Positions 13,689 to 52,741 of a stretch of 64,000 nucleotides of DNA are shown here, piece by piece. A model generated the notes under the pieces. The model saw only the letters and a program-made list of their open reading frames with translations, had not been told where the DNA came from and searched no databases. The translations under genes were made by a program, and so were the position numbers. The stretch's first letter is position 1; the number at the start of each line of letters is the position of its first letter. Origin of the DNA: Hyunsoonleella flava (GTDB taxonomy: Bacteria; Bacteroidota; Bacteroidia; Flavobacteriales; Flavobacteriaceae). The stretch spans positions 62,001 through 126,000 of the forward strand of contig NZ_SIRT01000012.1 of NCBI RefSeq assembly GCF_004310325.1. The letters are read 5' to 3'.

Positions 13689-13772
13689 GGCGTTCCCTCC
13701 GCTTGAGCGCCGGTCGGGCTTTCACGAGTCGCTCTCTGCGAGGAGCTCCAACAATCGCTCAATCCCTAACGC
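13689..13772 (+). repeat. Structured intergenic element, copy A (upstream of mpl)
   Basis: An 84-bp element with ends GCGTT and AACGC that can pair. It contains the conserved core TCGGGCTTTC, a GCTC(T)CT/AGGAGC stem, and the 3' block CAATCCCTAACGC. Related copies lie at 25613-25705 and 52653-52741 in the same orientation. It ends 88 bp before mpl. A similar named motif from comparative genomics is Flavo-1 RNA; I cannot tell whether this is that family. Confidence 0.8.
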
Positions 13773-13860
13773 GGAAAGAAACATCCGTTCACAGCCCTAA
13801 AGTATTCAACTTTTAAGCATTAAGCTTTGAACTTTAAACATAGAGTTTGATATTTGCTTT

Positions 13861-15216
13861 ATGAACGTACATTTTATCGCCATTGGCGGTGCAGCGATGC
13901 ACAATTTAGCACTAGCATTACATAACAAAGGTTACAACGTTACGGGAAGTGACGACACAATTTTTGAACCCTCAAAATCCAGATTGGAAGCAAAAGGCTT
14001 ATTGCCTGAAACATTTGGGTGGTATCCCGAAAAAATTACTTCGGATTTAGATGCTATTGTTTTAGGTATGCACGCCAAATCTGATAATCCTGAATTATTG
14101 AAAGCTCAGGATTTAGGACTTAAAATCTACAGTTACCCGGAGTTTTTGTATGAACAATCCAAACACAAAACCCGAGTTGTTATTGGTGGTAGCCATGGTA
14201 AAACTACAATTACTTCTATGATTTTGCATGTGATGCATTATCATGATAGAGATGTAGATTACATGGTTGGCGCACAATTAGAAGGTTTTGATGTGATGGT
14301 AAAACTTACGGAGGACAATGACTTTATTGTTTTAGAAGGTGATGAATATTTGAGTTCACCTATTGATAGACGTCCAAAATTTCATTTATACAAACCGAAT
14401 ATCGCCCTATTAAGCGGTATTGCATGGGATCATATTAATGTATTTCCAACTTACGAAAACTACGTAGAGCAGTTTAGTATTTTTGTGGATTCTATTGTTT
14501 CAGGCGGCAGTATCAATTATAATGAAGAAGATGCCGAAGTAAAGCGAGTGGTAGAGGCTAGTGAAAATACCATTAGAAAATTACCATACCGAACACCCGC
14601 GTACACTGTTGAAAACGGACAAACACTTTTAGAAACACCCGAAGGCGATTTACCCATTGAAGTATTTGGGAAACATAACCTAAACAATTTAGCAGGAGCC
14701 AAATGGATTTGCCAACACATGGGCATTGATGAGGACGATTTTTATGAAGCCATTTCTACATTTAAGGGTGCAAGCAAACGCTTGGAAAAAATAGCAGAAG
14801 GCCAAACAAGTGTAGCCTTTAAAGACTTTGCGCATTCACCAAGTAAGGTAGAGGCCACCACAAAAGCTGTAAAAGAACAATACCAAAACAGAACCTTGGT
14901 AGCCTGTTTAGAACTTCATACTTATAGCAGTTTAAATGCTGAATTTTTAAAAGAATACAAAGGCGCATTAGATGCTGCAGATGTAGCCGTAGTATTTTAT
15001 TCACCACACGCGGTTGAGATTAAAAAGCTAGAAAAAGTAACGCACGAACAAATTGCTGAAGCTTTTCAACGAGACGATTTAATTATTTACACCAACCCAG
15101 ACGATTTTAAAGACTTTTTGTTTGCTCAAAACTTTGATAACAAAGCATTATTATTGATGAGTTCTGGGAATTATGGTGGTTTGGATTTTGAGGAGGTAGA
15201 AGGTTTAATAAACTAG
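13861..15216 (+). CDS. mpl: Mur ligase family protein, Mpl type (UDP-MurNAc:tripeptide ligase)
   Basis: A 451-residue Mur ligase. The N-terminal Rossmann motif is FIAIGGAAMHNLA, the ATP P-loop is GSHGKTT (Lys114), and the central domain has EGDEYLSS and the HINVF region. The C-terminal domain has FKDFAHSPSKV. Lack of an N-terminal extension, and DFAHSPSK, point to the Mpl group, which reattaches the tripeptide L-Ala-D-Glu-mDAP to UDP-MurNAc during wall recycling, rather than MurC. An amidase gene that could release such peptides lies 1.5 kb downstream. MurC remains the alternative reading. Confidence 0.85.
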   Translation: MNVHFIAIGGAAMHNLALALHNKGYNVTGSDDTIFEPSKSRLEAKGLLPETFGWYPEKITSDLDAIVLGMHAKSDNPELLKAQDLGLKIYSYPEFLYEQSKHKTRVVIGGSHGKTTITSMILHVMHYHDRDVDYMVGAQLEGFDVMVKLTEDNDFIVLEGDEYLSSPIDRRPKFHLYKPNIALLSGIAWDHINVFPTYENYVEQFSIFVDSIVSGGSINYNEEDAEVKRVVEASENTIRKLPYRTPAYTVENGQTLLETPEGDLPIEVFGKHNLNNLAGAKWICQHMGIDEDDFYEAISTFKGASKRLEKIAEGQTSVAFKDFAHSPSKVEATTKAVKEQYQNRTLVACLELHTYSSLNAEFLKEYKGALDAADVAVVFYSPHAVEIKKLEKVTHEQIAEAFQRDDLIIYTNPDDFKDFLFAQNFDNKALLLMSSGNYGGLDFEEVEGLIN

Positions 15217-15285
15217 CTGTCATCCTGAACTTGATTCAGGATCTCAACACTTTTGATGGATTCCGCATCAAGTGCGGAATGACAG
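15217..15285. repeat. REP-like inverted repeat
   Basis: Two arms of about 26 bp face each other. The left begins CTGTCATCCTGAACTTGAT and the right ends ATCAAGTGCGGAATGACAG. The arms agree at most positions, with changes concentrated around CCTGAA/TCCGCA, and each arm is itself palindromic. It starts directly after the mpl stop codon and could form a stable transcript-end hairpin. Elements beginning TGTCAT are dispersed in many Bacteroidota genomes. Confidence 0.75.
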
Positions 15286-15393
15286 ATACAACAGGTTAGA
15301 AGTAGGTTGCATGATTTATCTTAAGGGTTTTAGTTTTTAAAGATGTAACAATTACCTTTAAATTTCTACTGATTTATTATAAACTAATTACAA

Positions 15394-16785
15394 ATGAAAT
15401 TTAGTAGGCTTTTTTATGATTCAAGGGTAAGCTTCACAAAAATTTCAATCAATTGGATTATAATTTCTGTTGTGATTGGTTTATTATCGGCTTTAACAAT
15501 TTACAATTTCTTTTATGTGATTAGAGAATCTTTTAGAGTGATGACTTTTGGATTTGCTAATTTACCTTATGTTTTAACTGAGGAAGATAGAAATTCTTAT
15601 AATTTATTTTTTGCAGGTTTGTCAGTGGTTTTTGCAAATTCGATCACCATTAATATGTTATTAAGTCGACCTTCTGGTATTCTGTATTGGAGAAATCCAA
15701 TTAGGAGAAGAATATTAAACGATCAGGTATTCTTAAACTTTAATTTTTCTTATTGGTTCACAAAAATGGGCTTATGCTTCTTTATATTTTCAATGTGTTG
15801 TTTGGATTTTGATTTTTCTCCATATGTTGGTGTTCTATCCTCATTATTACTTTTGGTATTATATTTAGATTCATGGAAAGGGTTGAGCAGAATTTTTCGA
15901 AAAAACAGATTCAAATTTCAAATAATTCATTTTACTGTTCTAATATTGTTAACCTTTGGTTTGAGCAAAATAAATACAATCGACTATCAATCTATTGATG
16001 ATACAGCAATAAAATCAAGTCCTATTTACCAGTTACCTTACTCTAACTTTTATCATGAATTTCATTCGGCTTATCACAGAGAAGTAGTGCTTACTTTGGA
16101 ATTAGAAGATGACAATGAATTATTGATATTATATCAAGGAAAAAGAGCAGTTGTCAATGATATTCCAGACATTATTGCGGCTGAAAGAGCATCGCTACGT
16201 GAAGAAATGGTACCATTTCTTCACGTTAGAATTATAGCAGATAAAGCTTTAAATATAGAATATATTAAACAGGTTGAAAAGATATTATACACTATTGCTC
16301 AACTATATGTTGTTTATGATGTCTATAATGATGATTTATTAACCCATAGATTTGAGAGAAGGGGTATTAAATTTAAGATTACCCCAACAATTATAGAATT
16401 ACAATCAAATATAGATATTCAAACCCCGCCTTTACCTGAATGGTGGTATTTTGATAGGTCTAAAAACCTTATGAGTATTATAAAAGTAGATATTGGTAGT
16501 GTTATTAAAGTAAACGGTATTATAACTCCTAAAGAAATCTTGGTAGAAGAATTCAAAAAGTATATTCTTAAGAATATACTTTTTGAATATTCTTATGAAA
16601 AAAACACATCATATCAAGATTACATTAATGTATTATCATCTCAATATAAAGCTGCGTTTGAGTTGCGTAAACAGAATCAAACAATTTTTAAAGAACATAG
16701 CTATAATGACCGTGAGGCTTATCTGGAGGAGCAGAATAAGCTAAAACAACAATTTCCAATACGGATAATTGAAACGTTTGATTAA
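15394..16785 (+). CDS. Orphan multi-pass membrane protein
   Basis: A 463-residue protein I do not recognise. The first 200 residues hold about five hydrophobic segments, for example INWIIISVVIGLLSALTIY, LFFAGLSVVFANSITINML, MGLCFFIFSMCCLDF, VGVLSSLLLLVLYL and IIHFTVLILLTFGL. The remainder (about 205-463) is soluble and charged, with beta-alpha character and a tryptophan-rich LPEWWYFDR motif near 347. Base composition is more AT-rich than its neighbours. It is convergent with the amidase gene (4-bp overlap). No function is proposed. Confidence 0.75.
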   Translation: MKFSRLFYDSRVSFTKISINWIIISVVIGLLSALTIYNFFYVIRESFRVMTFGFANLPYVLTEEDRNSYNLFFAGLSVVFANSITINMLLSRPSGILYWRNPIRRRILNDQVFLNFNFSYWFTKMGLCFFIFSMCCLDFDFSPYVGVLSSLLLLVLYLDSWKGLSRIFRKNRFKFQIIHFTVLILLTFGLSKINTIDYQSIDDTAIKSSPIYQLPYSNFYHEFHSAYHREVVLTLELEDDNELLILYQGKRAVVNDIPDIIAAERASLREEMVPFLHVRIIADKALNIEYIKQVEKILYTIAQLYVVYDVYNDDLLTHRFERRGIKFKITPTIIELQSNIDIQTPPLPEWWYFDRSKNLMSIIKVDIGSVIKVNGIITPKEILVEEFKKYILKNILFEYSYEKNTSYQDYINVLSSQYKAAFELRKQNQTIFKEHSYNDREAYLEEQNKLKQQFPIRIIETFD

Positions 16786-17942
16786 TTATTACGCTCCTTA
16801 AAATCCACCAAAAGCCCTTCATAAAACCATTTTGCCAAGGCTTCTCGGTTTTCCCAATTCAAAATACGTCTTTGGTCTTTTTTGTTTTTAATATTGCCTA
16901 ATTCAATATAAACCATGGCTGGTAGGGTGTTTTTAATAACATAGAGGCTTCGGGAGCTTACGGTGCCAGAATAGGTGCGGTTGGGTTGGTGTTTGGCATA
17001 TTTCTTTTTAAACGTGTTGTGAATGTTTTGAGCAAGCTTTTTACCGCTTTTACTCTTTTGATGATGGTAAAAGAAAACATCAATATTTTTACCCTTGCTT
17101 CTGCTATCAATATGTGTAACAATTAGTCTTTGGTAGGCACCTTTGTGCTTTAGATAGAGTTTATTTACCACTTTGGTACGTTCACGAAGTCGCAGTTTTT
17201 GATTTAGTGAAATAGAATGATTTGGATAATACACTTCATCATAATCTACCTCTAAAACACGTTTATCCCTAATGCCATCATTTTTATCTTTAATGATGAT
17301 GTAAACCTTAGCACCATTGGCAAGGAGTTTTCGGGCAAGTCTTAAGGTAACATCATAAGCATATTCATCTTCTGAAATAAGTTTGCCTGCGTAGGTTTCA
17401 ATAGCACCAGGGTCTGGACCGCCATGTCCGGAAATTAAATAATATACAGCACCTTTTAAGGTTTCACTTTCTTTTGGAAACACTTTGTGTTTTTCACCAA
17501 AAAGCGAATTGGTAATCGTTTCAATCTCTGGAACAACAATAGAATCTTTTGGCTTGGACACTAGAATAATCGGGATACTATCTTTTATACTTATATCTTT
17601 TGCAGTAACAACAGTGTCTCGTTTTATAAGTGGCAGTAGATATGTTTTACCAATCAACAAGCCATTGTCTGGTTTTAACTTGTCTTTATTCAACTTAATA
17701 AAAGCCCTAAAATTTTCAGTAGGCTCTAGACCGTGTTTCCTTAGTAAGACATAAATACCGTCTCCTTTTTCGGCAATAACTTCTTTTTCTGAAGTTTGTG
17801 CCCCAGCAGAAAAGGTCATCAGAAGTATAACGTACAGTAGTGTTTTTATAATTTTAGGACTTAATGTTAATAATCGCTTGAATGAAAACGGCTTTAGTTT
17901 TAAATTATTCTTTGATGGCTTAAACCGAAATACCTTAAACAA
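16782..17942 (-). CDS. N-acetylmuramoyl-L-alanine amidase with LysM-like domain
   Basis: A 386-residue cell-wall hydrolase that cuts the amide bond between MurNAc and the stem peptide. After a basic leader and signal-like helix (TLLYVILLMTFSAGAQ) comes a LysM-like segment (AEKGDGIYVLLRKHGL to GKTYLLPL). The Amidase_3 fold follows, with zinc ligands likely in SGHGGPDPG, the E of ISEDEYAYD and VTHIDS, and a catalytic Glu in IELGNIKN. The only initiation codon ahead of the signal helix is TTG at 17942, because an in-frame stop lies at 17952-17954. It overlaps the MOSC gene by 8 bp, which suggests translational coupling. Confidence 0.87.
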   Translation of the reverse strand: MFKVFRFKPSKNNLKLKPFSFKRLLTLSPKIIKTLLYVILLMTFSAGAQTSEKEVIAEKGDGIYVLLRKHGLEPTENFRAFIKLNKDKLKPDNGLLIGKTYLLPLIKRDTVVTAKDISIKDSIPIILVSKPKDSIVVPEIETITNSLFGEKHKVFPKESETLKGAVYYLISGHGGPDPGAIETYAGKLISEDEYAYDVTLRLARKLLANGAKVYIIIKDKNDGIRDKRVLEVDYDEVYYPNHSISLNQKLRLRERTKVVNKLYLKHKGAYQRLIVTHIDSRSKGKNIDVFFYHHQKSKSGKKLAQNIHNTFKKKYAKHQPNRTYSGTVSSRSLYVIKNTLPAMVYIELGNIKNKKDQRRILNWENREALAKWFYEGLLVDFKERNN

Positions 17943-18570
17943 TAAATTGCTTCAATTTTTCTCGTTTGCGTTCTGGTAAAATATTTAAAGACACCGCTAT
18001 GTTTAGTAGGTTTTGAGATTTTACTTTTGAAAATATCAAGTTATACAATTCTGCCACGGTAAGGCTTTCCTCTAAACGATCAACTAATGTCAATTTATCC
18101 TTGGTACGAACCAAACCCTCTTCAATAACACTAACATAGGTTCCCGGAAAACCATGGTCAATAAATTGTTTTAAAATATTTTGAGATCCAAATTTCGCAC
18201 CAAATTTAAAACAAGGTTCTCTAGGTTGGGTAACTTGCACTGAGGCTTCTCCAATTTTGTATATATCGCCTACCATCATTTGTGTTTCGTTCATCCCGTT
18301 TACGGTGAGGTTTTCTCCAAACATGCCCCAATTCCAATCTAAATCAGGATACAAGGTCTTCCAATAGGGGTAATGGTCTGCTGAAAATAAATAGCAGGCT
18401 TTAAAAGTACCACCATGAACTTTTTTATCGGCTATAAAGTCATTGTTAACACCTTGCTTTCCTAAATAAATGGGGTTTTGTGTTGGTATTTTAAAAATGC
18501 CAGTGGACACTTCTTTGTTTTGCCATAAGATGGTTTTGGGTTCAGAGATATTGGTAGATTTTATGTACAT
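17935..18570 (-). CDS. MOSC domain-containing protein (YiiM-like)
   Basis: A 211-residue protein made of a single MOSC domain. The conserved Cys lies in QPREPCFKFGAKFG. Upstream are MFGENLTVNGM and KVHGG, and downstream is HGFPGTYVSVIEEG. Stand-alone MOSC proteins such as YiiM and YuaD are thought to use molybdenum cofactor for hydroxylamine-type reductions. A short helical tail (LPERKREKLKQF) follows. It is first gene of a probable two-gene unit with the amidase, and divergent from radC. A functional link to the amidase is not obvious. Confidence 0.9.
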   Translation of the reverse strand: MYIKSTNISEPKTILWQNKEVSTGIFKIPTQNPIYLGKQGVNNDFIADKKVHGGTFKACYLFSADHYPYWKTLYPDLDWNWGMFGENLTVNGMNETQMMVGDIYKIGEASVQVTQPREPCFKFGAKFGSQNILKQFIDHGFPGTYVSVIEEGLVRTKDKLTLVDRLEESLTVAELYNLIFSKVKSQNLLNIAVSLNILPERKREKLKQFIV

Positions 18571-18731
18571 AGATTGTTAGCCTATAAATTGTACTTAAAA
18601 GTAGCAAAATTTTTGTGGTAATTACTGTAGGTAAACATACTTAGCAATAGATTAACGAATCATCAAAACACGCTTAAACTTTTTGCCATAAAATTTTACA
18701 GGGTTATCATTACAATATTTATCTTTAACCA

Positions 18732-19430
18732 ATGCAAGAGAAACCATCTTCGTTTTCAATAAAAAATTGGAGTCAGGACGATCAACCTCGTGAAAAATTA
18801 CTGTATAAAGGGAAATCTGCCCTTAGTGATGCCGAATTGGTGGCTATTTTAATAGGTTCGGGCAATAAAGAAGAAAGTGCCGTGGCATTGTGCAAACGTA
18901 TTTTGGCCAGTGTTGACAATAATTTAAGTGAATTAGGAAAACTTTCCATCAAACAGCTTATGGAGTTTAAAGGCATTGGTGAAGCAAAAGCAATAACCAT
19001 TGCTGCTGCTTTGGAATTAGGGAGAAGGCGTAGGGGAGAAGAGGCACTTGAAAAGAAAAAAATTACATCTAGTGTATCGGTATTTGAGTTGATGCAACCT
19101 GTAATTGGGGAGCTGGAACATGAAGAGTTTTGGATTATTTATTTGAACAATTCCAATAAAGTTATTCAGAAAAATCAATTGAGCAAAGGAGGCATCACTG
19201 GCACTTTGGTTGATGTAAGACTAGTATTAAAAAATGCACTTGAAGTTGGCGCAACAGGATTGGTTTTAGCCCATAATCATCCATCGGGAACGTTAAAACC
19301 TAGTGAAGCAGACAAACAGATTACACAAAAATTAAAGTCGGCAGCATTAAGTTTGGACATTCGGGTTTTAGATCATCTTATAATTACCGAAAAAGCCTAT
19401 TTTAGTTTTGCTGATGAGAATATTTTGTAA
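18732..19430 (+). CDS. radC: RadC family JAB-domain protein
   Basis: A 232-residue RadC/UPF0758 protein. The N-terminal helix-hairpin-helix region (LMEFKGIGEAKAITIAAALELG) resembles DNA-binding HhH elements. The C-terminal JAB/MPN domain carries the zinc motif HNHPSG (His181, His183) followed by SEADKQIT. Length and domain order are typical of housekeeping RadC. The historic DNA-repair role is doubtful and the metalloprotease-like activity unproven. It is followed after 15 bp by the deacetylase-like gene. Confidence 0.95.
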   Translation: MQEKPSSFSIKNWSQDDQPREKLLYKGKSALSDAELVAILIGSGNKEESAVALCKRILASVDNNLSELGKLSIKQLMEFKGIGEAKAITIAAALELGRRRRGEEALEKKKITSSVSVFELMQPVIGELEHEEFWIIYLNNSNKVIQKNQLSKGGITGTLVDVRLVLKNALEVGATGLVLAHNHPSGTLKPSEADKQITQKLKSAALSLDIRVLDHLIITEKAYFSFADENIL

Positions 19431-19445
19431 AAGTTGAGAACCTAA

Positions 19446-20750
19446 ATGCTACTAGTTTACACCCATAAAATAACACCACGATTAAAATATGTTTTCAAGC
19501 ATATTTGTACGCGTGTATTGGGCGTTAAAGTAGATTTTACAACTAAAATAGAAGATTTTATTGCGCACGACAGCATAAAAATGTCGTATACAAAACAGCA
19601 TTTGGGCAATGAGTTTTTTATAAAGAGCCATGAGATTTTATTTGAACAGGGACTTTCGGATATAGAAATAAATGTTCAAAAATGGGAAAACACCAAATGC
19701 TTTTTCTTCAACGGCGACAAGAGTGCAATGCCATTTGATATTTTTGCTGCGTCTTTTTATATGCTATCTCGATATGAAGAATATTTACCGCAACGCAAAG
19801 ACCAATACGGGAGATTTATGGCAACCGAAAGTTTGGGATATAAACATGGTTTTCTGCATCAACCAGTTGTAGATATTTGGGCATATAAATTTAAAACTGC
19901 ACTGCAAGAACAGTTTCCAGAATTTGAATTTCCCAAGAAAGAATATCGTATCAAACCCATTATTGATGTTCCTAGTCCATATAACTACAAGCTAAAAGGG
20001 GTGATGCGATCTCTAGGTGGTACTATTAAGGATTTTTTTAGATTTCGATTTAGGGATTTGTATATAAGGTATGCAGTGCTTTTTGGCCTAAAGCATGACC
20101 CTTTTGATACATTCAAGTATATTATTAACAAGCAAAAACAAACGCAGTTTAAGTTTTTGGTATTCTTCTTTATTGGCTCTTATTCTACTTTTGATAAAGG
20201 CATTAATATCAACAAGCGTAAGTATGTGTCTCTTATAAAGCATATAGCCGATTATTGTAAGGTGGGCTTAAAAGCGTCATACTTTTCAGTTAAAGATGTT
20301 GAACTGCTAAAAAAAGAAAAACGTCAAATGGAAGACGTATTGAACACTGCATTGAGTGCATCCCGATTTTCGTTTTCGAAATTAAACCTTCCAGAATCCT
20401 ATAGAAACTTGGTACAATTGGAGGTGAAAGAGGATTATACCATGGGTTATGTAAACCATATAGGATTTAGAGCAGGTTCTTGTACACCATTTTTATTTTA
20501 TGATTTAGACTATGAGGTGCAAACACCTCTTATGGTGTGTCCATTTCACCTTATGGACTTCGCATTGTTAAAAACGACTTCACTATTAGATAAAAAGAAA
20601 GTATTGAATACGATTATCGACGAAGTAAAGCATGTAAATGGAGAATTTGTACCTGTATTTCATAATTATACGTTTATTAATTCTGGACGATGGAGCGGTT
20701 TTAAAGAACTGTTTAATATTATTTTAGCCTCAGCGAATGAAAAAAATTAA
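19446..20750 (+). CDS. Polysaccharide deacetylase-like protein
   Basis: A 434-residue protein matching a Bacteroidota family annotated as polysaccharide deacetylase with an N-terminal DUF7033-type domain. The first 100 residues hold YTHKITPRLKYVFKHI and FDIFAASFYMLSRYEEYL. The central part has KPIIDVPSPYNYK, where an NodB-fold protein would carry its first acidic pair, and later FRAGSCTPFLFYDL. Classical NodB zinc motifs (H-x3-H) are not clear, so enzymatic activity is uncertain. The end overlaps the yjjG-like gene by 14 bp, consistent with one operon with radC. Confidence 0.8.
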   Translation: MLLVYTHKITPRLKYVFKHICTRVLGVKVDFTTKIEDFIAHDSIKMSYTKQHLGNEFFIKSHEILFEQGLSDIEINVQKWENTKCFFFNGDKSAMPFDIFAASFYMLSRYEEYLPQRKDQYGRFMATESLGYKHGFLHQPVVDIWAYKFKTALQEQFPEFEFPKKEYRIKPIIDVPSPYNYKLKGVMRSLGGTIKDFFRFRFRDLYIRYAVLFGLKHDPFDTFKYIINKQKQTQFKFLVFFFIGSYSTFDKGININKRKYVSLIKHIADYCKVGLKASYFSVKDVELLKKEKRQMEDVLNTALSASRFSFSKLNLPESYRNLVQLEVKEDYTMGYVNHIGFRAGSCTPFLFYDLDYEVQTPLMVCPFHLMDFALLKTTSLLDKKKVLNTIIDEVKHVNGEFVPVFHNYTFINSGRWSGFKELFNIILASANEKN

Positions 20751-21429
20751 CGGTATTACCGATGTGTTTTTCGATTTAGACCATACACTGTGGGATTTTG
20801 AAAAGAATTCTGCCCTAACTTTTAAAAAGATTTTTGAGCTTAATACTATTGAAGTAGGCTTAAATGATTTTCTGGAAAAATATATTCCTATTAACTTCAA
20901 ATATTGGAAATTATATAGAGAGGAGCGCATTAAAAAAGAAGATTTACGGTTTGCGCGTTTAAATGAAACGTTTCAAACACTAAACTTATCTGTTGAGGAC
21001 GGTATGATTCGTAAACTGTCTGACGATTACATCAAATATTTATCAACTTTTAATTTTTTGATAGAGGATACTACAAGTATACTTCAGTATCTAAAATCTA
21101 AATACAAATTACACATAATTACCAACGGTTTCAACGAGGTGCAGTACAAGAAAATGGACCGATCAAACATCACACCTTATTTTGAGACTATAACCAATTC
21201 GGAAATTGCTGGTGTAAAAAAGCCAAACCCCAAAATATTCAATTTCGCATTGAATTTAGCAAAAACAAAACCAAAACAAAGTATCATGATAGGAGATAGT
21301 TTGGAGGCTGACATTGAAGGTGCTTTAAACATTGGGATGGATGCTATTTTTTTTAGCCAAGATACAACCCGTTTAAACGGAAAAATAAAAGGTGTTTCAA
21401 AATTAATAGAGCTGAAACAGTTTTTATAA
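20737..21429 (+). CDS. yjjG: YjjG-type HAD pyrimidine 5'-nucleotidase
   Basis: A 230-residue HAD phosphatase. Motif I is FFDLDHTLWDF, with two Asp acting as nucleophile and acid/base. Motif II is IITNGF, the Lys lies in GVKKPNPKIF, and motif IV is IGDSLEADIEGA. The four-helix cap begins with NSALTFKKIF. This pattern is that of the YjjG family, which dephosphorylates non-canonical pyrimidine nucleotides in the cytoplasm and so protects nucleotide pools. Its start lies within the previous gene (14-bp overlap). Confidence 0.92.
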   Translation: MKKINGITDVFFDLDHTLWDFEKNSALTFKKIFELNTIEVGLNDFLEKYIPINFKYWKLYREERIKKEDLRFARLNETFQTLNLSVEDGMIRKLSDDYIKYLSTFNFLIEDTTSILQYLKSKYKLHIITNGFNEVQYKKMDRSNITPYFETITNSEIAGVKKPNPKIFNFALNLAKTKPKQSIMIGDSLEADIEGALNIGMDAIFFSQDTTRLNGKIKGVSKLIELKQFL

Positions 21430-21465
21430 AGCAATACTTGACCAAAACGCGACGTTTTTAGACTA

Positions 21466-25612: not shown

Positions 25613-25705
25613 GGGCGTGCCCCCGATAAAAAATCGGGGTCGGGCTTTCGGCAGTCGCTCCCTCTTCCGTCGGGGAGCTTCAACAAATGCCTCAATCCCT
25701 CACGC
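25613..25705 (+). repeat. Structured intergenic element, copy B (upstream of the rhomboid gene)
   Basis: A 93-bp element whose ends are GCGTG and CACGC, where copies A and C have GCGTT and AACGC; this is a compensating change. It contains CCCCGAT/ATCGGGG, TCGGGCTTTC, GGCA/TGCC, GCTCCC/GGGAGC, and CAATCCCTCACGC. It ends 60 bp before the rhomboid gene. Confidence 0.8.
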
Positions 25706-44815: not shown

Positions 44816-45214
44816 ATGTATTCAGATCCAATAGCGGATTATCTTACGAGAGTTAGAAATGCAATTAGAGCTAACCACAGAGTGGTAGAGATTCCTGCGT
44901 CTAACTTAAAGAAAGACATCACTAAAATATTATTCGAGCAAGGATATATTTTAAGCTACAAGTTCGATGATTCTACTGTACAAGGCACCATCAAAATTGC
45001 ACTTAAGTACAATAAAGAAACTAAAGAACCTGTAATCAAGAAAATTCAACGTATTAGTACACCAGGTTTACGTAAGTATGCTGGTGCTAAGGAACTACCT
45101 AGAGTACTTAACGGTCTTGGTATTGCCATAGTTTCAACATCTCACGGTGTAATGACAGGTAAGCAAGCACAAAGAGACAATGTAGGTGGTGAAGTTTTAT
45201 GTTACGTTTACTAA
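44816..45214 (+). CDS. rpsH: 30S ribosomal protein S8
   Basis: A 132-residue uS8, which binds the central domain of 16S rRNA and in E. coli represses the spc operon. Starts MYSDPIADYLTRVRNAI, ends VGGEVLCYVY, with STSHGVMTGKQAQRD before it. A 75-bp spacer precedes it, somewhat wider than its neighbours, with no clear hairpin. Confidence 0.98.
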   Translation: MYSDPIADYLTRVRNAIRANHRVVEIPASNLKKDITKILFEQGYILSYKFDDSTVQGTIKIALKYNKETKEPVIKKIQRISTPGLRKYAGAKELPRVLNGLGIAIVSTSHGVMTGKQAQRDNVGGEVLCYVY

Positions 45215-45232
45215 TATTAAAGCCAGAAAGAA

Positions 45233-45775
45233 ATGTCAAGAATAGGAAATAATCCAGTAGCAATTCCAGAAGGTGTAACAGTAGACGTTAAAGATGGCGT
45301 TGTAACTGTAAAAGGGAAATTAGGAGAATTAACTCAAAACTTTGATTCAATTGAAATCAAAGTTGAAGAGGGTAATGTTTTGGTAACACGTTCTTCAGAT
45401 ACTAAAGATCAAAAAGCAAAACATGGTTTATACAGATCATTAATGCACAACATGATTGAAGGTGTGTCTAAAGGATGGACAAAAGAACTTGAATTGGTTG
45501 GTGTAGGTTACAGAGCATCAAACCAAGGACAGAAATTAGATTTAGCTTTAGGTTTTTCTCATAATATTGTTATGAGCATTGCACCGGAAGTAAAAATCGA
45601 AACGATTTCTGAAAAAGGTAAAAACCCAATCGTAAAACTAACGTCTCACGACAAACAATTAGTTGGTCAAGTAGCCGCTAAGATTCGTGGTTTCCGTAAG
45701 CCAGAGCCTTATAAAGGAAAAGGAATCAAGTTTGTTGGTGAAGAATTAAGAAGAAAAGCAGGTAAATCAGCTTAA
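45233..45775 (+). CDS. rplF: 50S ribosomal protein L6
   Basis: A 180-residue uL6 near the factor-binding site. Starts MSRIGNNPVAIPEGVTV, contains VGVGYRASNQGQKLDLALGFSH (in part) and ends FRKPEPYKGKGIKFVGEELRRKAGKSA (in part). Complete. Confidence 0.98.
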   Translation: MSRIGNNPVAIPEGVTVDVKDGVVTVKGKLGELTQNFDSIEIKVEEGNVLVTRSSDTKDQKAKHGLYRSLMHNMIEGVSKGWTKELELVGVGYRASNQGQKLDLALGFSHNIVMSIAPEVKIETISEKGKNPIVKLTSHDKQLVGQVAAKIRGFRKPEPYKGKGIKFVGEELRRKAGKSA

Positions 45776-45785
45776 TAATTGAGTT

Positions 45786-46142
45786 ATGGCATTGACAAAG
45801 AATCAAAGAAGATTAAGAATTAAAAACAGAATCCGTAAGGTTGTTTCTGGTACAGAAGCAAAACCAAGGTTAGCTGTTTATAGAAGTAATAAAGAGATCT
45901 ATGCTCAAATAGTTGATGACGTTTCTGGTAAAACCTTAAGCGCTGCATCTTCTAGAGATAAGGATATCGCTAAAGCAAAAGGAAATAAAACTGAAGTTGC
46001 GGCTTTAGTTGGAAAAGCTATTGCTGAAAAAGCGTTAAAAGCAGGTATTGAAACTATTTCTTTTGATAGAGGTGGTTACTTATATCACGGAAGAGTAAAA
46101 TCATTAGCTGAAGGCGCTAGAGAAGGCGGACTTAAATTCTAA
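45786..46142 (+). CDS. rplR: 50S ribosomal protein L18
   Basis: A 118-residue uL18 that binds 5S rRNA. Contains [33 protein letters not shown] and [23 protein letters not shown] (in part). Complete. Confidence 0.98.
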
Positions 46143-46148
46143 GAAATT

Positions 46149-46673
46149 ATGTATCAAAAATATAAAAGCGCAGAATTAGTAAAACCAGGTGGACTAGATC
46201 TTAAAGATCGTTTAGTTGGTGTGCAAAGAGTTACTAAAGTAACAAAGGGTGGTAGAGCATTCGGTTTTTCAGCAATCGTTGTTGTTGGTGATGAAGCTGG
46301 TGTTGTAGGCCAAGGTTTAGGGAAGTCTAAAGACGTGGCTAGTGCAATTGCAAAGGCTGTTGAAGATGCTAAGAAAAACTTGGTTCGTATTCCTATTAGG
46401 AAAGGAACGTTACCTCACGAGCAAAAAGGTAAATACGGTGGAGCAAGAGTAAACATTATTCCTGCAGCTCCTGGTACTGGTGTAATCGCTGGTGGTGCTG
46501 TTAGAACAGTTCTTGAAGCAGTTGGTGTACACGATGTATTATCAAAATCTCAAGGATCATCTAACCCTCACAATGTGGTAAAAGCAACTTTTGATGCTTT
46601 ATTACAATTAAGAGATGCGAATGCTATCGCTAAGGATAGAGGTATTTCACTTGAAAAAGTTTTTAACGCTTAA
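46149..46673 (+). CDS. rpsE: 30S ribosomal protein S5
   Basis: A 174-residue uS5, important for decoding fidelity and mRNA entry. The double-stranded RNA-binding domain holds [19 protein letters not shown], and the C-terminal part [20 protein letters not shown]. Complete. Confidence 0.99.
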
Positions 46674-46685
46674 TAACTATCAACG

Positions 46686-46865
46686 ATGGGAAAAATTAAA
46701 GTAACAAAGGTTAAAAGCGCTATCAATCGTACGCAAAGACAAAAAAGAACTTTAGAAGCTTTAGGTCTTAAAAGGATTGGACAAGTAAAAGAACACGAGG
46801 CTACACCAAATATTTTGGGTATGGTAGCAAAAGTTTCACATTTAGTTTCTGTTGAAGAAGCTTAA
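46686..46865 (+). CDS. rpmD: 50S ribosomal protein L30
   Basis: A 59-residue uL30, read directly from the DNA. It starts MGKIKVTKVKSAINRTQRQK, continues LEALGLKRIGQVKEHEATP and ends AKVSHLVSVEEA. Sits between rpsE and rplO as usual. Confidence 0.97.
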   Translation: MGKIKVTKVKSAINRTQRQKRTLEALGLKRIGQVKEHEATPNILGMVAKVSHLVSVEEA

Positions 46866-46881
46866 CATATAATACTGAAAA

Positions 46882-47334
46882 ATGAATTTAAGTAACTTAC
46901 AACCGGCAAAAGGATCGGTAAAAACACAAGGCAAGCGAGTAGGTCGCGGACAAGGTTCAGGTAAAGGTGGTACTGCTACACGTGGTCACAAAGGAGCAAA
47001 GTCTCGTTCTGGATATTCTAAGAAATTAGGATTTGAAGGTGGACAAATGCCATTGCAAAGACGTGTGCCAAAGTTTGGTTTTACAAATATTAACCGTGTA
47101 GAATATCAAGCAATCAATCTTGATACATTGCAAGCGTTAGTAGAAGATAAAAAAGTAAAGGATACAGTAGATTTTAATGCTCTATTTGAAAATGGATTGG
47201 CTGGAAAAAATGATCTAGTTAAAATTTTAGGTAGAGGTGAATTAAAAGCTAAATTAAAAGTATCTGCTCACAAGTTTTCTGCTTCAGCAAAAGCTGCAAT
47301 TGAAGCGGCAGGAGGAGAAGCGATAACTTTATAA
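46882..47334 (+). CDS. rplO: 50S ribosomal protein L15
   Basis: A 150-residue uL15, a late 50S assembly protein. Starts MNLSNLQPAKGSVKTQGKR, with the glycine-rich GRGQGSGKGGTATRGHKGAK and FEGGQMPLQRRVPKFGF. Complete. Confidence 0.98.
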   Translation: MNLSNLQPAKGSVKTQGKRVGRGQGSGKGGTATRGHKGAKSRSGYSKKLGFEGGQMPLQRRVPKFGFTNINRVEYQAINLDTLQALVEDKKVKDTVDFNALFENGLAGKNDLVKILGRGELKAKLKVSAHKFSASAKAAIEAAGGEAITL

Positions 47335-47348
47335 GAATACATTAACGT

Positions 47349-48701
47349 ATGAAATTTATAGAATCAATAAAAAATGTTTGGAAAATTGAAGAACTAAGAA
47401 ACAGAATCATCGTTACATTGAGTCTGCTATTGGTTTATCGATTTGGTGCCCAAGTGGTATTGCCTGGTATTGATGCTGCACAGTTAAGCGGTTTAGCTGA
47501 TAGTACTGATGGAGGTTTGTTAGGGTTACTTAATGCCTTTACAGGTGGAGCTTTTGCTAATGCTTCGGTTTTTGCGCTTGGTATCATGCCTTACATTTCG
47601 GCTTCTATTGTTGTACAGTTAATGGGTATCGCTATTCCTTATTTGCAAAAGCTACAAAAGGAAGGTGCTAGTGGACAAAAGAAAATTACACAAATAACAC
47701 GTTGGTTAACCATTGCTATTTGTTTGGTACAGGCACCAGGATATTTAGCAAGTTTACCGGCTCTAGGAATTCCACAATCAGCTTTCCTATTAGGAACAGG
47801 TGGATTATTCTATTTCTCATCTGTAATTATCTTAGTAACTGGGTGTATTTTCGCTATGTGGTTAGGAGAGAAGATTACGGATAAAGGTATCGGTAACGGT
47901 ATTTCACTTTTAATTATGGTGGGTATTATTGCAACTATGCCTCAGTCGTTTGTGCAAGAGTATGCTGCAAGGGTAACAGAATCTAACGGTGGTTTAATCA
48001 TGATTTTGATTGAACTAGTAGTGTGGTTCGTCATCATATTGGCATCAGTAATGTTAGTAATGGCAGTTAGAAAAATAGCTGTACAGTATGCAAGAAGAAC
48101 TGCTTCTGGTGGTTATGAACGAGCTGCAGCTGGTGGATCAAGACAATACATTCCATTGAAGTTAAATGCATCTGGTGTAATGCCAATCATTTTTGCACAA
48201 GCTATCATGTTTGTGCCTGGATTAATTGGAGGATCATCTTTCTTAAAAGATACAGCAGCTGGTTTGTGGATGCAGACTAATTTTTCTGATATTTTTGGAT
48301 TTTGGTACAACGTAATTTTTGCTTTACTGATTATTGTGTTTACCTACTTCTACACAGCTATTACAGTGCCTACTAATAAAATGGCAGATGATTTGAAACG
48401 TAGTGGTGGTTTTATTCCAGGGATTCGTCCAGGTTCTGAAACATCAGAATATCTAGATAAAATAATGTCTCAGATTACCTTGCCAGGTTCAATATTTTTA
48501 GCATTAATAGCGGTATTCCCTGCATTTATTGTAAAACTAATGAACGTAACACAAGGTTGGGCATTATTCTTTGGAGGTACATCATTATTGATTATGGTTG
48601 GTGTAGCGATTGATACTATGCAGCAAATCAATTCTTATTTGCTGAATAGACACTATGATGGCTTGATGAAAACTGGTAAAAATAGAAAAGCAGTAGCTTA
48701 A
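47349..48701 (+). CDS. secY: Preprotein translocase subunit SecY
   Basis: A 450-residue, ten-helix channel of the Sec translocon in the inner membrane. Starts [20 protein letters not shown]. The pore-ring helix and lateral gate region contain [18 protein letters not shown]. Cytoplasmic loops include [18 protein letters not shown], and the loop before TM9 is [16 protein letters not shown], a SecA/ribosome contact. Placed between rplO and infA. The adk and map genes that intervene in many bacteria are absent. Confidence 0.99.
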
Positions 48702-48711
48702 TAAAGATATT

Positions 48712-48927
48712 ATGGCAAAACAAGCAGCAATAGAACAAGATGGAACAATTATAGAAGCATTATCTAATGCGATGTTCCGTGTTGAATTAGAAAATGGTCA
48801 CATTGTGACTGCGCATATTTCTGGTAAGATGCGTATGCACTATATCAAATTATTACCAGGAGATAAAGTAAAATTAGAAATGAGTCCTTACGATTTAACT
48901 AAGGCTCGTATAACTTATAGATATTAA
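48712..48927 (+). CDS. infA: Translation initiation factor IF-1
   Basis: A 71-residue OB-fold factor that occupies the 30S A site during initiation. [19 protein letters not shown] and [20 protein letters not shown] are intact; ends KARITYRY. Placed 10 bp after secY. Confidence 0.99.
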
Positions 48928-48929
48928 TA

Positions 48930-49016
48930 CATTAAGTTGTAAAGTAATAAAGTAGAAAGTTGTAAAGTAAAGTCATTCAACTTTTAAACTTTAAACTTTT
49001 GAACTTTTAAACTAAA
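48930..49016 (+). repeat. Tandem-word inverted repeat in the infA-rpmJ spacer
   Basis: The left half repeats AAGTTGTAAAGT-type words and the right half repeats CAACTTTTAAACTTT-type words, so the two halves can pair as an imperfect hairpin. Related but different word palindromes occur in the next three spacers (49140-49238, 49616-49717 and 50110-50172). Confidence 0.6.
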
Positions 49017-49022
49017 ATTAAG

Positions 49023-49139
49023 ATGAAAGTAAGAGCATCAGTTAAAAAGAGAAGCGCAGATTGTAAAATTGTGCGTAGAAAAGGAAGACTTTACGTGATA
49101 AACAAAAAGAATCCTAGATTTAAACAAAGACAAGGTTAA
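49023..49139 (+). CDS. rpmJ: 50S ribosomal protein L36, zinc-site variant
   Basis: A 38-residue bL36 read directly from the [41 protein letters not shown]. The usual zinc ligands (Cys11, Cys14, Cys27, His32) are reduced to Cys14 alone. This is the zinc-independent C-minus form. It lies between infA and rpsM in the classic order. Confidence 0.97.
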
Positions 49140-49240
49140 AAATTAAGTCATTAGTTTTTTAGACGTTAGATGAATCTGTTCGAAATCGAAAGGTTTAGGA
49201 TTCTAACAACTAAAAGCTAACAATAGAAACTAAAAACAAT

Positions 49241-49615
49241 ATGGCAAGAATTGCAGGTGTAGACATACCAAAACAAAAAAGAGGAGTTATCTCTTTAACT
49301 TATATCTACGGAATAGGTAAAAGTAGAGCACAAGAAATTTTAGCAACGGCTAAGGTTGATGAAAGCACTAAAGTACAAGATTGGACAGATGACGAAATAG
49401 GAGCAATCCGTGAGGCTGTTGGATCTTATACTATTGAGGGTGAATTACGTTCTGAAACACAATTGAACATTAAGCGATTAATGGATATTGGTTGTTACAG
49501 AGGTATTCGTCACAGAGCGGGTCTTCCTTTAAGAGGGCAACGTACTAAAAACAACTCTAGAACAAGAAAAGGTAGAAGAAAAACTGTTGCTAACAAGAAA
49601 AAAGCAACTAAATAA
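49241..49615 (+). CDS. rpsM: 30S ribosomal protein S13
   Basis: A 124-residue uS13 in the 30S head, contacting P-site tRNA and L5 in bridge B1. Starts [19 protein letters not shown], contains [18 protein letters not shown], and has a basic tail ending KKKATK. Confidence 0.99.
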
Positions 49616-49717
49616 TACATAGTCTTTAGTCTATAGACGTTGGAAAGAATCTGTTTGAAATTGATACGGTTTAGGATTCTAGCGACTATAAACTATAAAC
49701 TAAAAACTAAAAAATAA

Positions 49718-50101
49718 ATGGCAAAGTCAAGTACTAAAAAACGTAAAGTAATAGTAGATGCAGTTGGAGAGGCACACGTTACCGCTTCTTTCAATAATAT
49801 CATCATTTCATTAACTAATAAGAAGGGAGACGTTATCTCATGGTCTTCTGCTGGTAAAATGGGATTTAGAGGATCAAAGAAAAATACACCTTATGCTGCT
49901 CAATTAGCTGCTGAAGATGCTGCTGGTGTAGCATTAGAAGCTGGATTGAAAAAAGTAAAAGTATACGTAAAAGGTCCTGGAAATGGTAGAGAATCTGCTA
50001 TTCGTTCTATTCACAATGCAGGTATTGAGGTTACTGAAATTATTGATGTAACGCCACTACCACATAATGGATGTCGTCCACCAAAACGTAGAAGAGTCTA
50101 A
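49718..50101 (+). CDS. rpsK: 30S ribosomal protein S11
   Basis: A 127-residue uS11 of the 30S platform near the E site. Contains [33 protein letters not shown] and the hallmark [13 protein letters not shown] end. Last gene before a strong internal terminator. Confidence 0.99.
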
Positions 50102-50172
50102 CTAAATTTTAGATGTACGAATCACGATTTTAGAATTTCTTAATCGTAAATCGTTACTCATAAATCGTAAAT

Positions 50173-50213
50173 AAAATTAATATCATCTGTTTGTCAGATG
50201 GTATTAATTTTTT
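50173..50213 (+). terminator. Intrinsic terminator between rpsK and rpsD
   Basis: A 17-bp stem (AAAATTAATATCATCTG with its complement, one G-U pair) around TTTGT, running into a T-rich end. It would end transcription from the upstream ribosomal genes. The stem is symmetrical enough to work in both directions. Confidence 0.82.
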
Positions 50214-50216
50214 GCA

Positions 50217-50316
50217 TAAATTTGCACACCTAAAAAATCAATATTAACACAAGTATCAACGAGAGGTTAATGGTTATCGAAGGATAAGATTAAGACCTTA
50301 ATTCATAACTACTCTC
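50217..50316 (+). promoter_or_regulatory. Promoter and leader hairpin of rpsD-rpoA-rplQ
   Basis: TAAATTTG at 50217-50224 fits the -7 consensus, with TTG at 50191 as a possible -33 (23-bp spacing, at the long end). The leader can fold with GAGAG (50261-50265) pairing CTCTC (50312-50316), GTTA or GTTAT pairing TAAC or ATAAC, and an inner ATTAA/TTAAT hairpin. S4 binding to such leaders controls this operon in other bacteria; here that is inference. Confidence 0.55.
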
Positions 50317-50330
50317 AAAAACAATTAAAA

Positions 50331-50936
50331 ATGGCAAGATATACTGGTCCTAAAACAAAAATCGCTCGTAAATTCGGCGAAGCTATCTTCGGAGAAGATA
50401 AATCTTTTGAAAAAAGAAATTACCCTCCTGGGCAACACGGAAACAACAGACGTCGTGGTAAAAAATCTGAGTACGCTATTCAATTAGCTGAAAAGCAAAA
50501 AGCAAAATACACTTACGGTATTTTAGAGCGTCAGTTTAGAGGCTTATTTAAGAAAGCAAGAGCTGCTCAAGGAATTACTGGTGAGGTATTATTACAACTT
50601 TGTGAATCTCGTTTAGATAACGTAGTTTACAGAATGGGAGTTTCTCCATCAAGAAGCGGTGCACGTCAATTAGTGTCTCACAGACACATTACAGTTAATG
50701 GTGAAATCGTTAACATTCCTTCTTACCAATTAAAAGCAGGAGATGTTGTTGCTGTAAGAGAAAAATCAAAATCACTTGAAGCTATCGAAAGATCACTTTC
50801 GAATTCAAGTCATGTTTACGAATGGATTACTTGGAACAACGATACTAAGTCTGGTACTTACGTTTCTGTTCCTGCTAGAATCCAAATTCCAGAAAATATC
50901 AACGAGCAATTTATCGTCGAATTATATTCCAAATAA
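50331..50936 (+). CDS. rpsD: 30S ribosomal protein S4
   Basis: A 201-residue uS4, a primary 16S-binding protein important for decoding fidelity. Starts [20 protein letters not shown], contains [18 protein letters not shown] and the S4 RNA-binding domain ([25 protein letters not shown]). Separated from rpsK by 229 bp with its own promoter. Confidence 0.99.
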
Positions 50937-51036
50937 TAAATTAACAACATTGGTATTTGGCCAAAGGGTTTATTTGTACTTCTTCAAACTTATAAACCGC
51001 GCAACCAAATAACAATTAAAACGAAGAAACACACAA

Positions 51037-52029
51037 ATGGCAGTATTTAGTTTTCAAAAGCCCGACAAAGTAATCATGATCGATTCTACTGATTTCGAAG
51101 GAAAATTCGAATTCAGACCTTTAGAACCAGGTTATGGTTTAACAGTGGGTAATGCATTAAGAAGAGTATTATTATCTTCTTTAGAAGGATTTGCAATCAC
51201 ATCAGTAAGAATCGAAGGTGTAGACCATGAGTTTTCTACGATTGCTGGGGTAGTTGAAGATGTAACAGAAATCATCTTAAACTTAAAGCAAGTTCGTTTT
51301 AAAAGACAAATAGAAGATATTGATAATGAGTCTATCTCAATTTCAATTTCTGGGCAAGAGCAAATATTAGCAGGAGACTTCCAGAAGTTTATCTCAGGAT
51401 TCCAAGTATTAAATTCAGAATTGGTTATCTGTAATTTAGATCCTAAGGTGAGCATTAACATGGAAATCACTATAGAAAAAGGTAGAGGTTACGTACCAGC
51501 AGAAGAAAACAAAAAGCCTTCTGCACCAATGGGAACAATCTTTACAGATTCTATCTACACACCAATCAAAAATGTGAAGTACAGCATTGAGAACTACCGT
51601 GTAGAGCAAAAAACGGATTATGAGAAGCTAGTATTTGAAATCATCACAGATGGTTCAATTACACCTCAGGATGCGTTAACTGAAGCTGCAAAAACTTTAA
51701 TCCACCACTTCATGTTATTCTCAGATGAGCGTATTACTTTAGAAGCGGATGAAATTGCACAAACTGAAACGTATGATGAAGAATCGCTTCATATGCGTCA
51801 GTTGCTTAAAACAAAGCTTATCGATATGGATTTATCTGTTCGTGCGCTTAACTGTTTAAAAGCTGCAGAAGTAGATACTTTAGGAGACTTAGTATCATTT
51901 AATAAAAATGATTTGATGAAGTTCCGTAACTTCGGTAAAAAATCTTTAACTGAGCTTGAAGAGCTTGTACACGTTAAAGGTTTGAATTTCGGAATGGACT
52001 TAAGCAAATATAAATTAGATAAAGATTAA
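51037..52029 (+). CDS. rpoA: DNA-directed RNA polymerase subunit alpha
   Basis: A 330-residue alpha subunit that nucleates RNA polymerase assembly and binds activators and UP elements. The N-terminal domain contains [20 protein letters not shown] and the C-terminal domain (from about 245) contains [20 protein letters not shown] and the helix-hairpin-helix [10 protein letters not shown]. Complete. Confidence 0.99.
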
Positions 52030-52040
52030 ATTAATCAACT

Positions 52041-52085
52041 CTTCTATAATTTGCTCCTCAAAAGAGTTTGGTAGCAAGATAGAAG
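52041..52085 (+). promoter_or_regulatory. Hairpin between rpoA and rplQ
   Basis: CTTCTAT (52041-52047) pairs ATAGAAG (52079-52085) and TTGCT (52051-52055) pairs AGCAA (52073-52077), separated by a small internal loop. The whole 71-bp spacer is nearly filled by it. No T tract follows, so a regulatory or processing role is more likely than termination. Confidence 0.45.
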
Positions 52086-52100
52086 TTTAAAACAAAAGTC

Positions 52101-52574
52101 ATGAGACACGGAAAAAAATTCAACCACTTAGGGAGAAAAACTGCACACAGAAAAGCAATGTTGGCTAATATGGCATGTTCTTTAATAGAGCACAAACGTA
52201 TTAACACGACGGTTGCTAAGGCAAAAGCTTTAAAGAAATTTGTGGAGCCTCTAGTAACAAAATCTAAAGAAGATACAACACATAACAGACGTATTGTTTT
52301 TAGTAAGCTAAGGCAAAAAGAAGCTGTAACTGAGTTGTTCAGAGACGTTGCGACTAAAGTTGGTGACAGACCAGGAGGTTACACTAGAATTATCAAGTTG
52401 GGTAATCGATTAGGTGATAACGCTGACATGGCGATGATAGAGTTAGTAGATTACAACGAAATCTACAACGCTGGTAAAAAAGCTAAGAAAACTACTAGAA
52501 GAAGTAGAAGAGGCGGTAGTAAACCTGCAGCAGCAGTACCAGTTGAAACTAACGCATCAAACGAAGAAGAATAA
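52101..52574 (+). CDS. rplQ: 50S ribosomal protein L17
   Basis: A 157-residue bL17 near the tunnel exit. Starts [20 protein letters not shown], contains [19 protein letters not shown] and MIELVDYN. The roughly 30-residue C-terminal tail ([20 protein letters not shown], ending acidic NEEE) is longer than E. coli's. Last gene of the ribosomal block. Confidence 0.99.
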
Positions 52575-52597
52575 ATGTTAATAAGCATTTAATATAT

Positions 52598-52633
52598 AAA
52601 GGATAAACTATTTTTAGTTTATCCTTTTTTTTT
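52598..52633 (+). terminator. Intrinsic terminator of the ribosomal block
   Basis: AAAGGATAAACTA with its complement TAGTTTATCCTTT around TTTT, followed by a long T run. It lies about 25 bp after the rplQ stop. Confidence 0.92.
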
Positions 52634-52652
52634 GAATTTTTGTAAAACTTTT

Positions 52653-52741
52653 GGCGTTACCCTCCTTTGGTCGGGTCGGGCTTTCGGCAGTCGCTCTCTC
52701 CTGCGTCGAGGAGCTTCAACAAATGCCTCAATCCCTAACGC
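52653..52741 (+). repeat. Structured intergenic element, copy C (upstream of carA)
   Basis: An 89-bp copy with ends GCGTT/AACGC, ACCC/GGGT stem, TCGGGCTTTC core, GGCA/TGCC, and GCTC(T)CT/AGGAGC stem. It shares the CAGTCGCTC and CTTCAACAAATGCCTCAATCCCT blocks with copy B. It lies between the rplQ terminator and carA, ending 21 bp before the start codon. Confidence 0.82.

Follow-up and report, generated by a model that had tools for sequence, protein, structure and literature searches.

A three-way-junction repeat of Bacteroidota, the complement of the Flavo-1 motif, that probably behaves as folded DNA and exchanges its distal arms in place

Miniature inverted-repeat transposable elements (MITEs) such as ERIC and NEMIS, repetitive extragenic palindromic (REP) sequences with their REP-associated tyrosine transposases (RAYT), and the Flavo-1 motif are the described systems to be compared with the element treated here. 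A REP is defined as a palindrome of 20-40 nt with an unpaired GTAG or CGTC tag, according to PMC3733652. Flavo-1 (Rfam RF01705) stands in Table 1 of Weinberg et al. 2010 as a probable RNA of Bacteroidetes that is not cis-regulatory (PMC2864571), has carried the annotation of a likely RNA ever since, and is listed under the most abundant small RNA (sRNA) families in a 2022 review (PMC9029176); a dedicated transcriptome study is reported to have yielded no clue to its function (PMC9723704). In the window, that is, the whole 64,000 nt of Hyunsoonleella flava DNA analysed (contig NZ_SIRT01000012.1, positions 62,001 to 126,000), an earlier note made from the sequence alone had described three copies, A, B and C, of a structured intergenic element with compensating base changes. 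A, B and C belong to a single non-coding repeat dispersed through Bacteroidota genomes, and the Flavo-1 family including them is probably a non-autonomous, REP/MITE-like DNA repeat whose fold matters as DNA.

All three copies are present where the note had placed them (Table 1), with the stems it had listed: GCGTT/AACGC in A and C, GCGTG/CACGC and CCCCGAT/ATCGGGG in B, and GGCA/TGCC in contrast to CGA/TCG. The block TCGGGCTTTC occurs exactly at three places and, with at most one mismatch, at 9, a count reached by 0/100 shuffles; the three exact matches of CAATCCCTNACGC are copies A, B and C, and its 4 matches at up to two mismatches are not beyond chance (20/100 shuffles reach this count). Compared with shuffles, the fold of a single copy is significant for B only (RNA z -2.79, with -0.65 for A and -0.41 for C), so that the structural evidence comes from the comparison of copies.

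The H. flava genome (3.81 Mb, 63 contigs) contains 63 places, hereafter the own copies, that fit TCGGGCTTTC-N20-50-CAATCCCT, 36 forward and 27 reverse, and none that fits the reversed pattern used as a control. A covariance model built from 51 of the 63 own copies (R1; calibration rough) gives at least 131 matches in this genome; copies A, B and C, all three of which went into the model, score 71.4, 93.6 and 97.6 bits. R1 is present in 12/12 sampled genomes of the genus, with at least 13-136 matches each among no more than 150 candidates scored per genome, in 210/299 genomes of the family (171/236 genera), in 162/395 of the class (76/197 genera) and in 56/395 of a phylum sample, 5 of these outside the class. 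A search of own and related genomes of the kind the note had proposed thus yields many further copies. No match for copy B was found in the phage collection; a looser pattern gave at least 120 stretches in IMG/VR. An own copy is also matched by 77 plasmid records (Bacteroides 57, Phocaeicola 10, Parabacteroides 9, Butyricimonas 1), and the copy on the B. thetaiotaomicron plasmid p5482 (L434:5999-6098) is annotated within a hypothetical protein on the opposite strand. A literature search with consensus strings returned no title on this repeat among the matches listed.

The repeat folds as a three-way junction and shows strong covariation. Without a given structure, RNAalifold recovers P1 (GCGTT/AACGC), P2 closed by CC/GG, P3 (GGG.TT/AA.CCC) and two more pairs, and the repeat unit is made up of a closing stem of 5 bp, a hairpin that varies freely and, built on GGGcTT/AAtCCC, a long distal arm. 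Exactly complementary 5-base ends are found in 57 of the 59 copies uncut by an insertion sequence (IS), the exceptions being L004 and L055. Three alignments were examined: A1, with 51 of the 63 own copies, which leaves out four cut by IS (L015, L028, L029, L056), L055 with its altered 3' end, L004 with its broken P1 arm, and six with a long P2 (L003, L008, L022, L025, L026, L054); A2, with all 17 R1 matches in 81 loci; and A3, with 60 distant copies hand-picked from high-scoring R1 matches, one per genome, from the family and class lists. In A1, where P1 and P3 are partly fixed by the choice of rows, 97.9% of cells are paired versus 91.5% after shuffling, with 51 double-change cells versus 19.3, and pairing falls to 52% if the partners are slid by one column. 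The corresponding values are 95.8% versus 89.6% and 12 versus 3.5 in A2, and 95.7% versus 84.4% and 84 versus 22.0 in A3; in each alignment 0/500 shuffles are as high, which bears out the view that the changes are truly compensating within one structured element. The P2 arms vary among copies yet pair within a copy, with Watson-Crick pairs at 4.21 of 6 positions versus 3.24 with arms permuted (33 copies with P2 of at least 16 nt; 0/10000 permutations as high).

The strand that folds is probably the complement of the one read in the note, because its energies are better and its mismatches are conserved. It is the more stable strand in 108 of 111 copies by RNA energies (50/51 in A1, 58/60 in A3) and in 106 of 111 by DNA energies (49/51 and 57/60). 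The mismatch in P3 of A3 is C.T in 60/60 copies on the strand of the note, hence G.A on the complement; the next one is T.C in 58/60 and the one after C.T in 38/60, giving tandem G.A on the complement there, and in A1 the mismatch bases are mostly fixed by the search pattern. It is the complement, too, that corresponds to Flavo-1. Twenty of the 60 distant loci and 20 of the 63 own loci, hand-picked so as to favour rarer arm types, were searched against Rfam. At the element, 16 of the 20 distant loci match RF01705 at full length (E<=0.5), seven of them at or above the gathering cut-off of 42 (49.0-63.7 bits), and 12 of the 20 own loci match it (E<=2), one above gathering (L007, 52.2 bits). All 28 of these matches lie on the strand opposite R1, as does that of the p5482 copy (25.2 bits).

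Copies A, B and C (L016, L017, L018) and five other own loci gave no Flavo-1 match at E<=2; for copy B there was none at E<=5, and the window contains no Flavo-1 at the gathering score (42 bits). In sequence, A-C have, on the strand that Rfam models, the Flavo-1 distal arm GGGATT.../...AAgCCC and its purine loops, and A3, which includes the seven copies passing gathering, has the same distal-arm columns. Since A-C fail the score of the Rfam model and sister copies pass it, they are taken as divergent relatives of Flavo-1 by homology, lying outside that model. The relation to Flavo-1, which had been left undecided, is thereby resolved to the extent that the complement of other copies is RF01705; A-C themselves are without a match. 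The repeat and Flavo-1 share the GGGATT arm, the G.A loops and the distal stem on the complement strand. On the other hand, the 76-position Rfam model pairs the distal arm only, so that P1 and the P2 hairpin fall outside it, and Rfam files the family as 'Gene; sRNA', whereas here it behaves as a DNA repeat. In F. psychrophilum, Flavo-1 matches are reported to lie indistinctly sense and antisense to transcribed regions, with many outside them (PMC9723704), a placement that fits a DNA repeat.

Whether the fold matters in RNA or in DNA was approached through G-U pairs, with the small signal recognition particle (SRP) RNA of the same class (RNAalifold structure; 30 loci of 56 matching genomes) as a control. 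G-U pairs fill 89/921 cells (9.7%) in SRP RNA and 3/349 in A2+A5, which holds all 27 R1 matches of the carA loci, the window and syntenic stretches of relatives and makes no pattern demands (p 6e-10 versus SRP, by cells). They number 1/801 in A3, picked from high-scoring matches, 1/815 in A6 (60 own-locus R1 matches, the loci being chosen by pattern), and 0/699 in A1, where the figure is largely by construction because the search pattern dictated P3 and the demand for exact complements dictated P1. Recounting on unselected hits softens one figure and leaves the odds as they were. In P2, which had no role in choosing copies, G-U occurs 0.12 times per 6 positions within a copy versus 0.55 between copies (33 copies). 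The pattern of changes differs as well: one-sided to both-sided changes stand at 1:84 in A3, 2:20 in A2+A5 and 67:109 in SRP RNA (p 0.008 for A2+A5), and double-change pairs that also show a one-sided change at 1/9 in A3 versus 15/22 in SRP RNA (p 0.006).

These figures bear directly on the proposal that the repeat is a multi-copy non-coding RNA, or an element acting at the RNA level, made from the complement strand, as Flavo-1 is filed in Rfam. The covariation in A1, A2 and A3, the RF01705 matches, the conserved G.A mismatches, of a kind seen in structured RNAs, and the reported coincidence of several F. psychrophilum 5' transcribed regions with Flavo-1 (PMC9723704) speak for it; it nevertheless appears unlikely in view of G-U at 0.1-0.9% versus the 9.7% of SRP RNA, of the match numbers per genus genome with no orientation to genes, and of the many Flavo-1 matches that the published RNA-seq places outside transcribed regions (PMC9723704). 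Selection on RNA structure, which the paired changes had suggested in the note, is not supported for an RNA of the strand read there: the complement folds better, G-U is rare and orientation to genes shows no preference.

Paired changes can also arise without selection, and template switching at the DNA level is described as yielding such double changes (PMC8794818). At site B, the orthologous places of copy B (see below), P2 reads CCCCGAT/ATCGGGG in the own copy, L205, L206 and L210 and CCCAGAT/ATCTGGG in L207, L208 and L214, with no intermediate between the two versions among the sequences read, and 59/84 double changes in A3 have no possible wobble route, versus 37/106 in SRP RNA. The double changes, their few intermediates and the published mechanism (PMC8794818) would suit a purely mutational origin, by template switching at quasi-palindromes in dead sequence free of selection or function. 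Arm correction alone is insufficient, however, because unpaired positions are conserved as well, with C.T in 60/60 and T.C in 58/60 copies of A3 at the two P3 mismatches and, by eye, TTGG kept 5' of the stem in most distant copies; this explanation is accordingly judged improbable.

Among the 63 own copies, with neighbouring genes assigned by simple open-reading-frame calling, no constant orientation to a neighbouring gene, as expected of a cis-regulatory RNA, was found: the upstream gene lies on the same strand in 31 and on the opposite strand in 32, the downstream gene on the same strand in 28 and on the opposite strand in 30, with none seen in 5. Placement upstream of plus-strand genes, noted for A-C, holds in the window, with the proviso that B stands upstream of a divergent minus-strand gene as well; as a rule for the genome it fails on these downstream counts. 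The suggestion of a mobile or small RNA that is not one cis-regulator stands insofar as the element is dispersed and not one cis-regulator; a small RNA of that strand is not supported. The distance from the element's 5' end to a co-oriented stop codon has a median of 18 nt (n=31) versus 81.5 nt for convergent stops (n=30; p 5e-4). Such closeness behind co-oriented stops would be expected of a transcript-end or mRNA-stabilising hairpin kept for local gene expression, yet half of the copies face the other way and orthologous sites differ among relatives through gain, loss and exchange of the element, and this explanation is judged unlikely.

The turnover was followed at the orthologous sites of all three copies. 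Copy C lies between the genes we take to be rplQ and carA, and at this site R1 matches 5/80 related loci (L100, L101, L103, L104, L162) besides the window; the element is absent in L099, L102 and L105, which are among the closest relatives. Inspection by eye shows hairpin repeats of other kinds there at several loci and just a short leader at several; the other repeats (CATTCCTGC..GCAGGAATC; GAGCGCAGTCGAAG and similar) were seen at the same spot in the carA leaders of L099, L102, L106, L124 and L138, and such repeats also seem to be nested in distal-arm loops (L093, L205). Site B carries the element at the orthologous place in seven relatives (L205-L208, L210, L213, L214), two of them with weak R1 matches (L213 27.0 bits, L206 23.9 bits); it is absent in L219, L220 and L222, and in genome G002 the flanks lie apart (L217, L218) with no R1 match. 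P1 is GCGTG/CACGC in the own copy, L205, L208, L210 and L214; L206, L207 and L213 each differ from it by one change, and the GATAAAAATC hairpin is kept in 6/7 relatives (7/8 species counting the own). The distal arms at this site fall into four types (own and L210; L207 and L208; L205, L206 and L214; L213), so that six of the seven relatives have a type unlike that of copy B. At site A, three different distal arms are seen in the own copy, L207 and L212; in L205 and L206 a broken fourth arm is left, as judged by eye, L209 gives a degenerate match, and the remaining relatives have none. Among the copies of the H. flava genome, P2 type does not depend on distal type (mutual information 0.277 versus 0.277 shuffled; n=63). 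Because the arm types differ at sites A and B and the P2 and distal types are independent, distal arms have been replaced in place at these two orthologous sites and reassorted; the means may be a dedicated enzyme, gene conversion or template switching from one copy to another. Fixed cis-regulation of mpl, the rhomboid gene or carA is rejected in view of orientation and site turnover.

As to mobilisation, the one candidate class tested is Y1_Tnp. The 27 Y1_Tnp loci (about 3.2 kb, from 10 of the 12 genus genomes; some with broken frames or fusions) include none with an R1 match at E<=0.05, where chance alone would, by our own estimate, give about 1.6, and in genome G006 R1 matches 91 times with no match to Y1_Tnp at E<=0.001. 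That the repeat is a classical REP moved by a RAYT, a Y1 transposase, would agree with its high copy number, its palindromic and intergenic nature, its unpaired 5' TTGG and its use as a target by an IS110-like element, in the way that IS621 uses the REPs of E. coli (PMC11208160). The absence of the element from the Y1_Tnp loci, the case of G006, and a three-way junction of about 84-93 nt with no GTAG or CGTC tag, longer than a REP and carrying TTGG at the 5' side in most copies, nonetheless make it very improbable, and with no Y1_Tnp locus flanked by the repeat a RAYT/REP partnership is disfavoured in this genus. Several observations were made on the Y1_Tnp genes themselves. One (L197:1462-2970; IS200-like, 23.4 bits with a cut-off of 23) is fused in frame to a coproporphyrinogen III oxidase (PF01218, E 6e-136), and the Y1_Tnp frames of about 505-530 aa in L185, L193 and L194, from three more genus genomes, are of a length like that of this fusion. 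By eye, AGCGGTAGCGGGG palindromes adjoin the Y1_Tnp gene of H. flava (L031:1820-1850 and 2020-2160) and are perhaps its cognate REP, unlike the present element.

A different relation emerges for IS110. Eight contig ends of H. flava (L065-L072) stop in one identical sequence after the 3' block of the repeat, CAATCCCT in six and CTATCCCT in two, and the same left end lies behind the same 3' block in relatives (L093, L097). In L094 a left end 85% alike stands next to a complete transposase of 330 aa that carries PF01548 and PF02371 (L094:1705-2697). An IS110-like element thus appears to insert into the repeat, behind the conserved C(A/T)ATCCCTAAC. The link is carried by the left end, because the IS of L094 stands outside any copy of the repeat (R1 gives no match there at E<=0.1) and the H. 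flava assembly has no IS110 match by Pfam, perhaps as the element breaks contigs. The left end in H. flava carries TATATCCCTAAC, which is the target's own sequence, as the guide of a bridge RNA would; a putative bridge RNA is suggested by analogy with the guides of IS621, for which E. coli REPs are described as targets (PMC11208160), and the left end folds mildly better than its shuffles (z -1.77). Readings of the contig-end inserts as a group II intron or attC were weighed on the boundary sequence and dropped. In L095 and L096, elements are followed by just about 24 nt of the left end of the IS, beyond which other sequence begins, possibly scars or an alternative 3' tail. The repeat is not a simple transposon fragment as far as the transposon ends examined (Y1_Tnp and IS110) go: no parent transposon was found there, and the IS110-like element inserts into the repeat instead.

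The family works like REP or MITE elements without being shown to be either. With the REP/RAYT system it shares high-copy, intergenic, palindromic DNA that is a target of IS110-type elements; with MITEs it shares a size of about 90 nt, a non-coding, folded and dispersed nature, loops that by eye host nested repeats, and terminal inverted repeats, yet of 5 bp only, and it differs from them in having no clear target duplication (57 copies), no parent transposon among those examined and arms that swap in place. As a folded DNA repeat, it would spread and be maintained as a cruciform or as single strand exposed in replication. A single template-switching event could match its arms, recombination between copies, with the conserved P3 blocks as anchors, would exchange the distal arms, and an enzyme might act in trans, much as for REP and MITE elements. 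A bolder version, which we put forward tentatively, sees in Flavo-1 a phylum-wide single-stranded-DNA family of modular cassettes, in which an enzyme reading the folded strand with its G.A core would swap distal arms at a fixed junction.

Several points weigh against a DNA repeat. A number of copies lie within 5' leaders, where an RNA role is possible; a conserved fold usually implies some reader. No mobilising gene was found in the class tested, and no target duplication stands out in 57 copies (best 4-mer offset 6/57 versus 2.2 expected, 450 offsets tried). Local GC skew, as a sign of replication-strand bias, is weak and confounded (mean -0.045, 26/63 positive; t-test p 0.002). The cells compared for G-U come from related copies and are not independent events, and the sets compared include A3, drawn from high-scoring matches, and A1, shaped by its own selection. 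Moreover, G-U pairs do occur, in L206 at site B, where P1 has a G-T, in L114, L110, L257 and L055, and by eye in L004.

Table 1. Positions of the three copies and their stems in the window
Feature	Position	Better-folding (Flavo-1) strand	Location	Basis
Copy A	13689..13772	minus		stems and homologous alignment columns, R1 match
Copy A P1 GCGTT/AACGC	13690-13694/13768-13772			
Copy A P2 region, imperfect	13695-13713			
Copy A P3	13716-13718+13720-13721/13761-13762+13764-13766			
Copy A P4 CGA/TCG	13725-13727/13755-13757			
Copy A P5 GCTC/GAGC	13731-13734/13743-13746			
Copy B	25613..25705	minus		stems, orthologous-site comparison, R1 match
Copy B P1 GCGTG/CACGC	25615-25619/25701-25705			
Copy B P2 CCCCGAT/ATCGGGG	25621-25627/25633-25639			
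Copy B P3	25642-25644+25646-25647/25694-25695+25697-25699			
Copy B P4 GGCA/TGCC	25650-25653/25688-25691			
Copy B P5 GCTCCC/GGGAGC	25657-25662/25673-25678			
Copy C	52653..52741	minus	between presumed rplQ and carA	stems, site comparison, R1 match
Copy C P1 GCGTT/AACGC	52654-52658/52737-52741			
Copy C P2	52660-52662/52673-52675			
Copy C P3	52678-52680+52682-52683/52730-52731+52733-52735			
Copy C P4 GGCA/TGCC	52686-52689/52724-52727			
Copy C P5 GCTC/GAGC	52693-52696/52711-52714			

Apart from the repeat, the window contains a match to the S4-Flavobacteria ribosomal protein leader (RF03141, 44.9 bits) at 50272-50310 on the plus strand, upstream of a plus-strand frame at 50331-50936.

If the Flavo-1 family is a DNA repeat, its annotation needs re-examination, and the sRNA counts of Bacteroidota would be inflated. 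Covariation alone is no proof of RNA, and G-U content offers a simple check. A folded DNA family with in-place exchange of arms would then become accessible to genetic tests.

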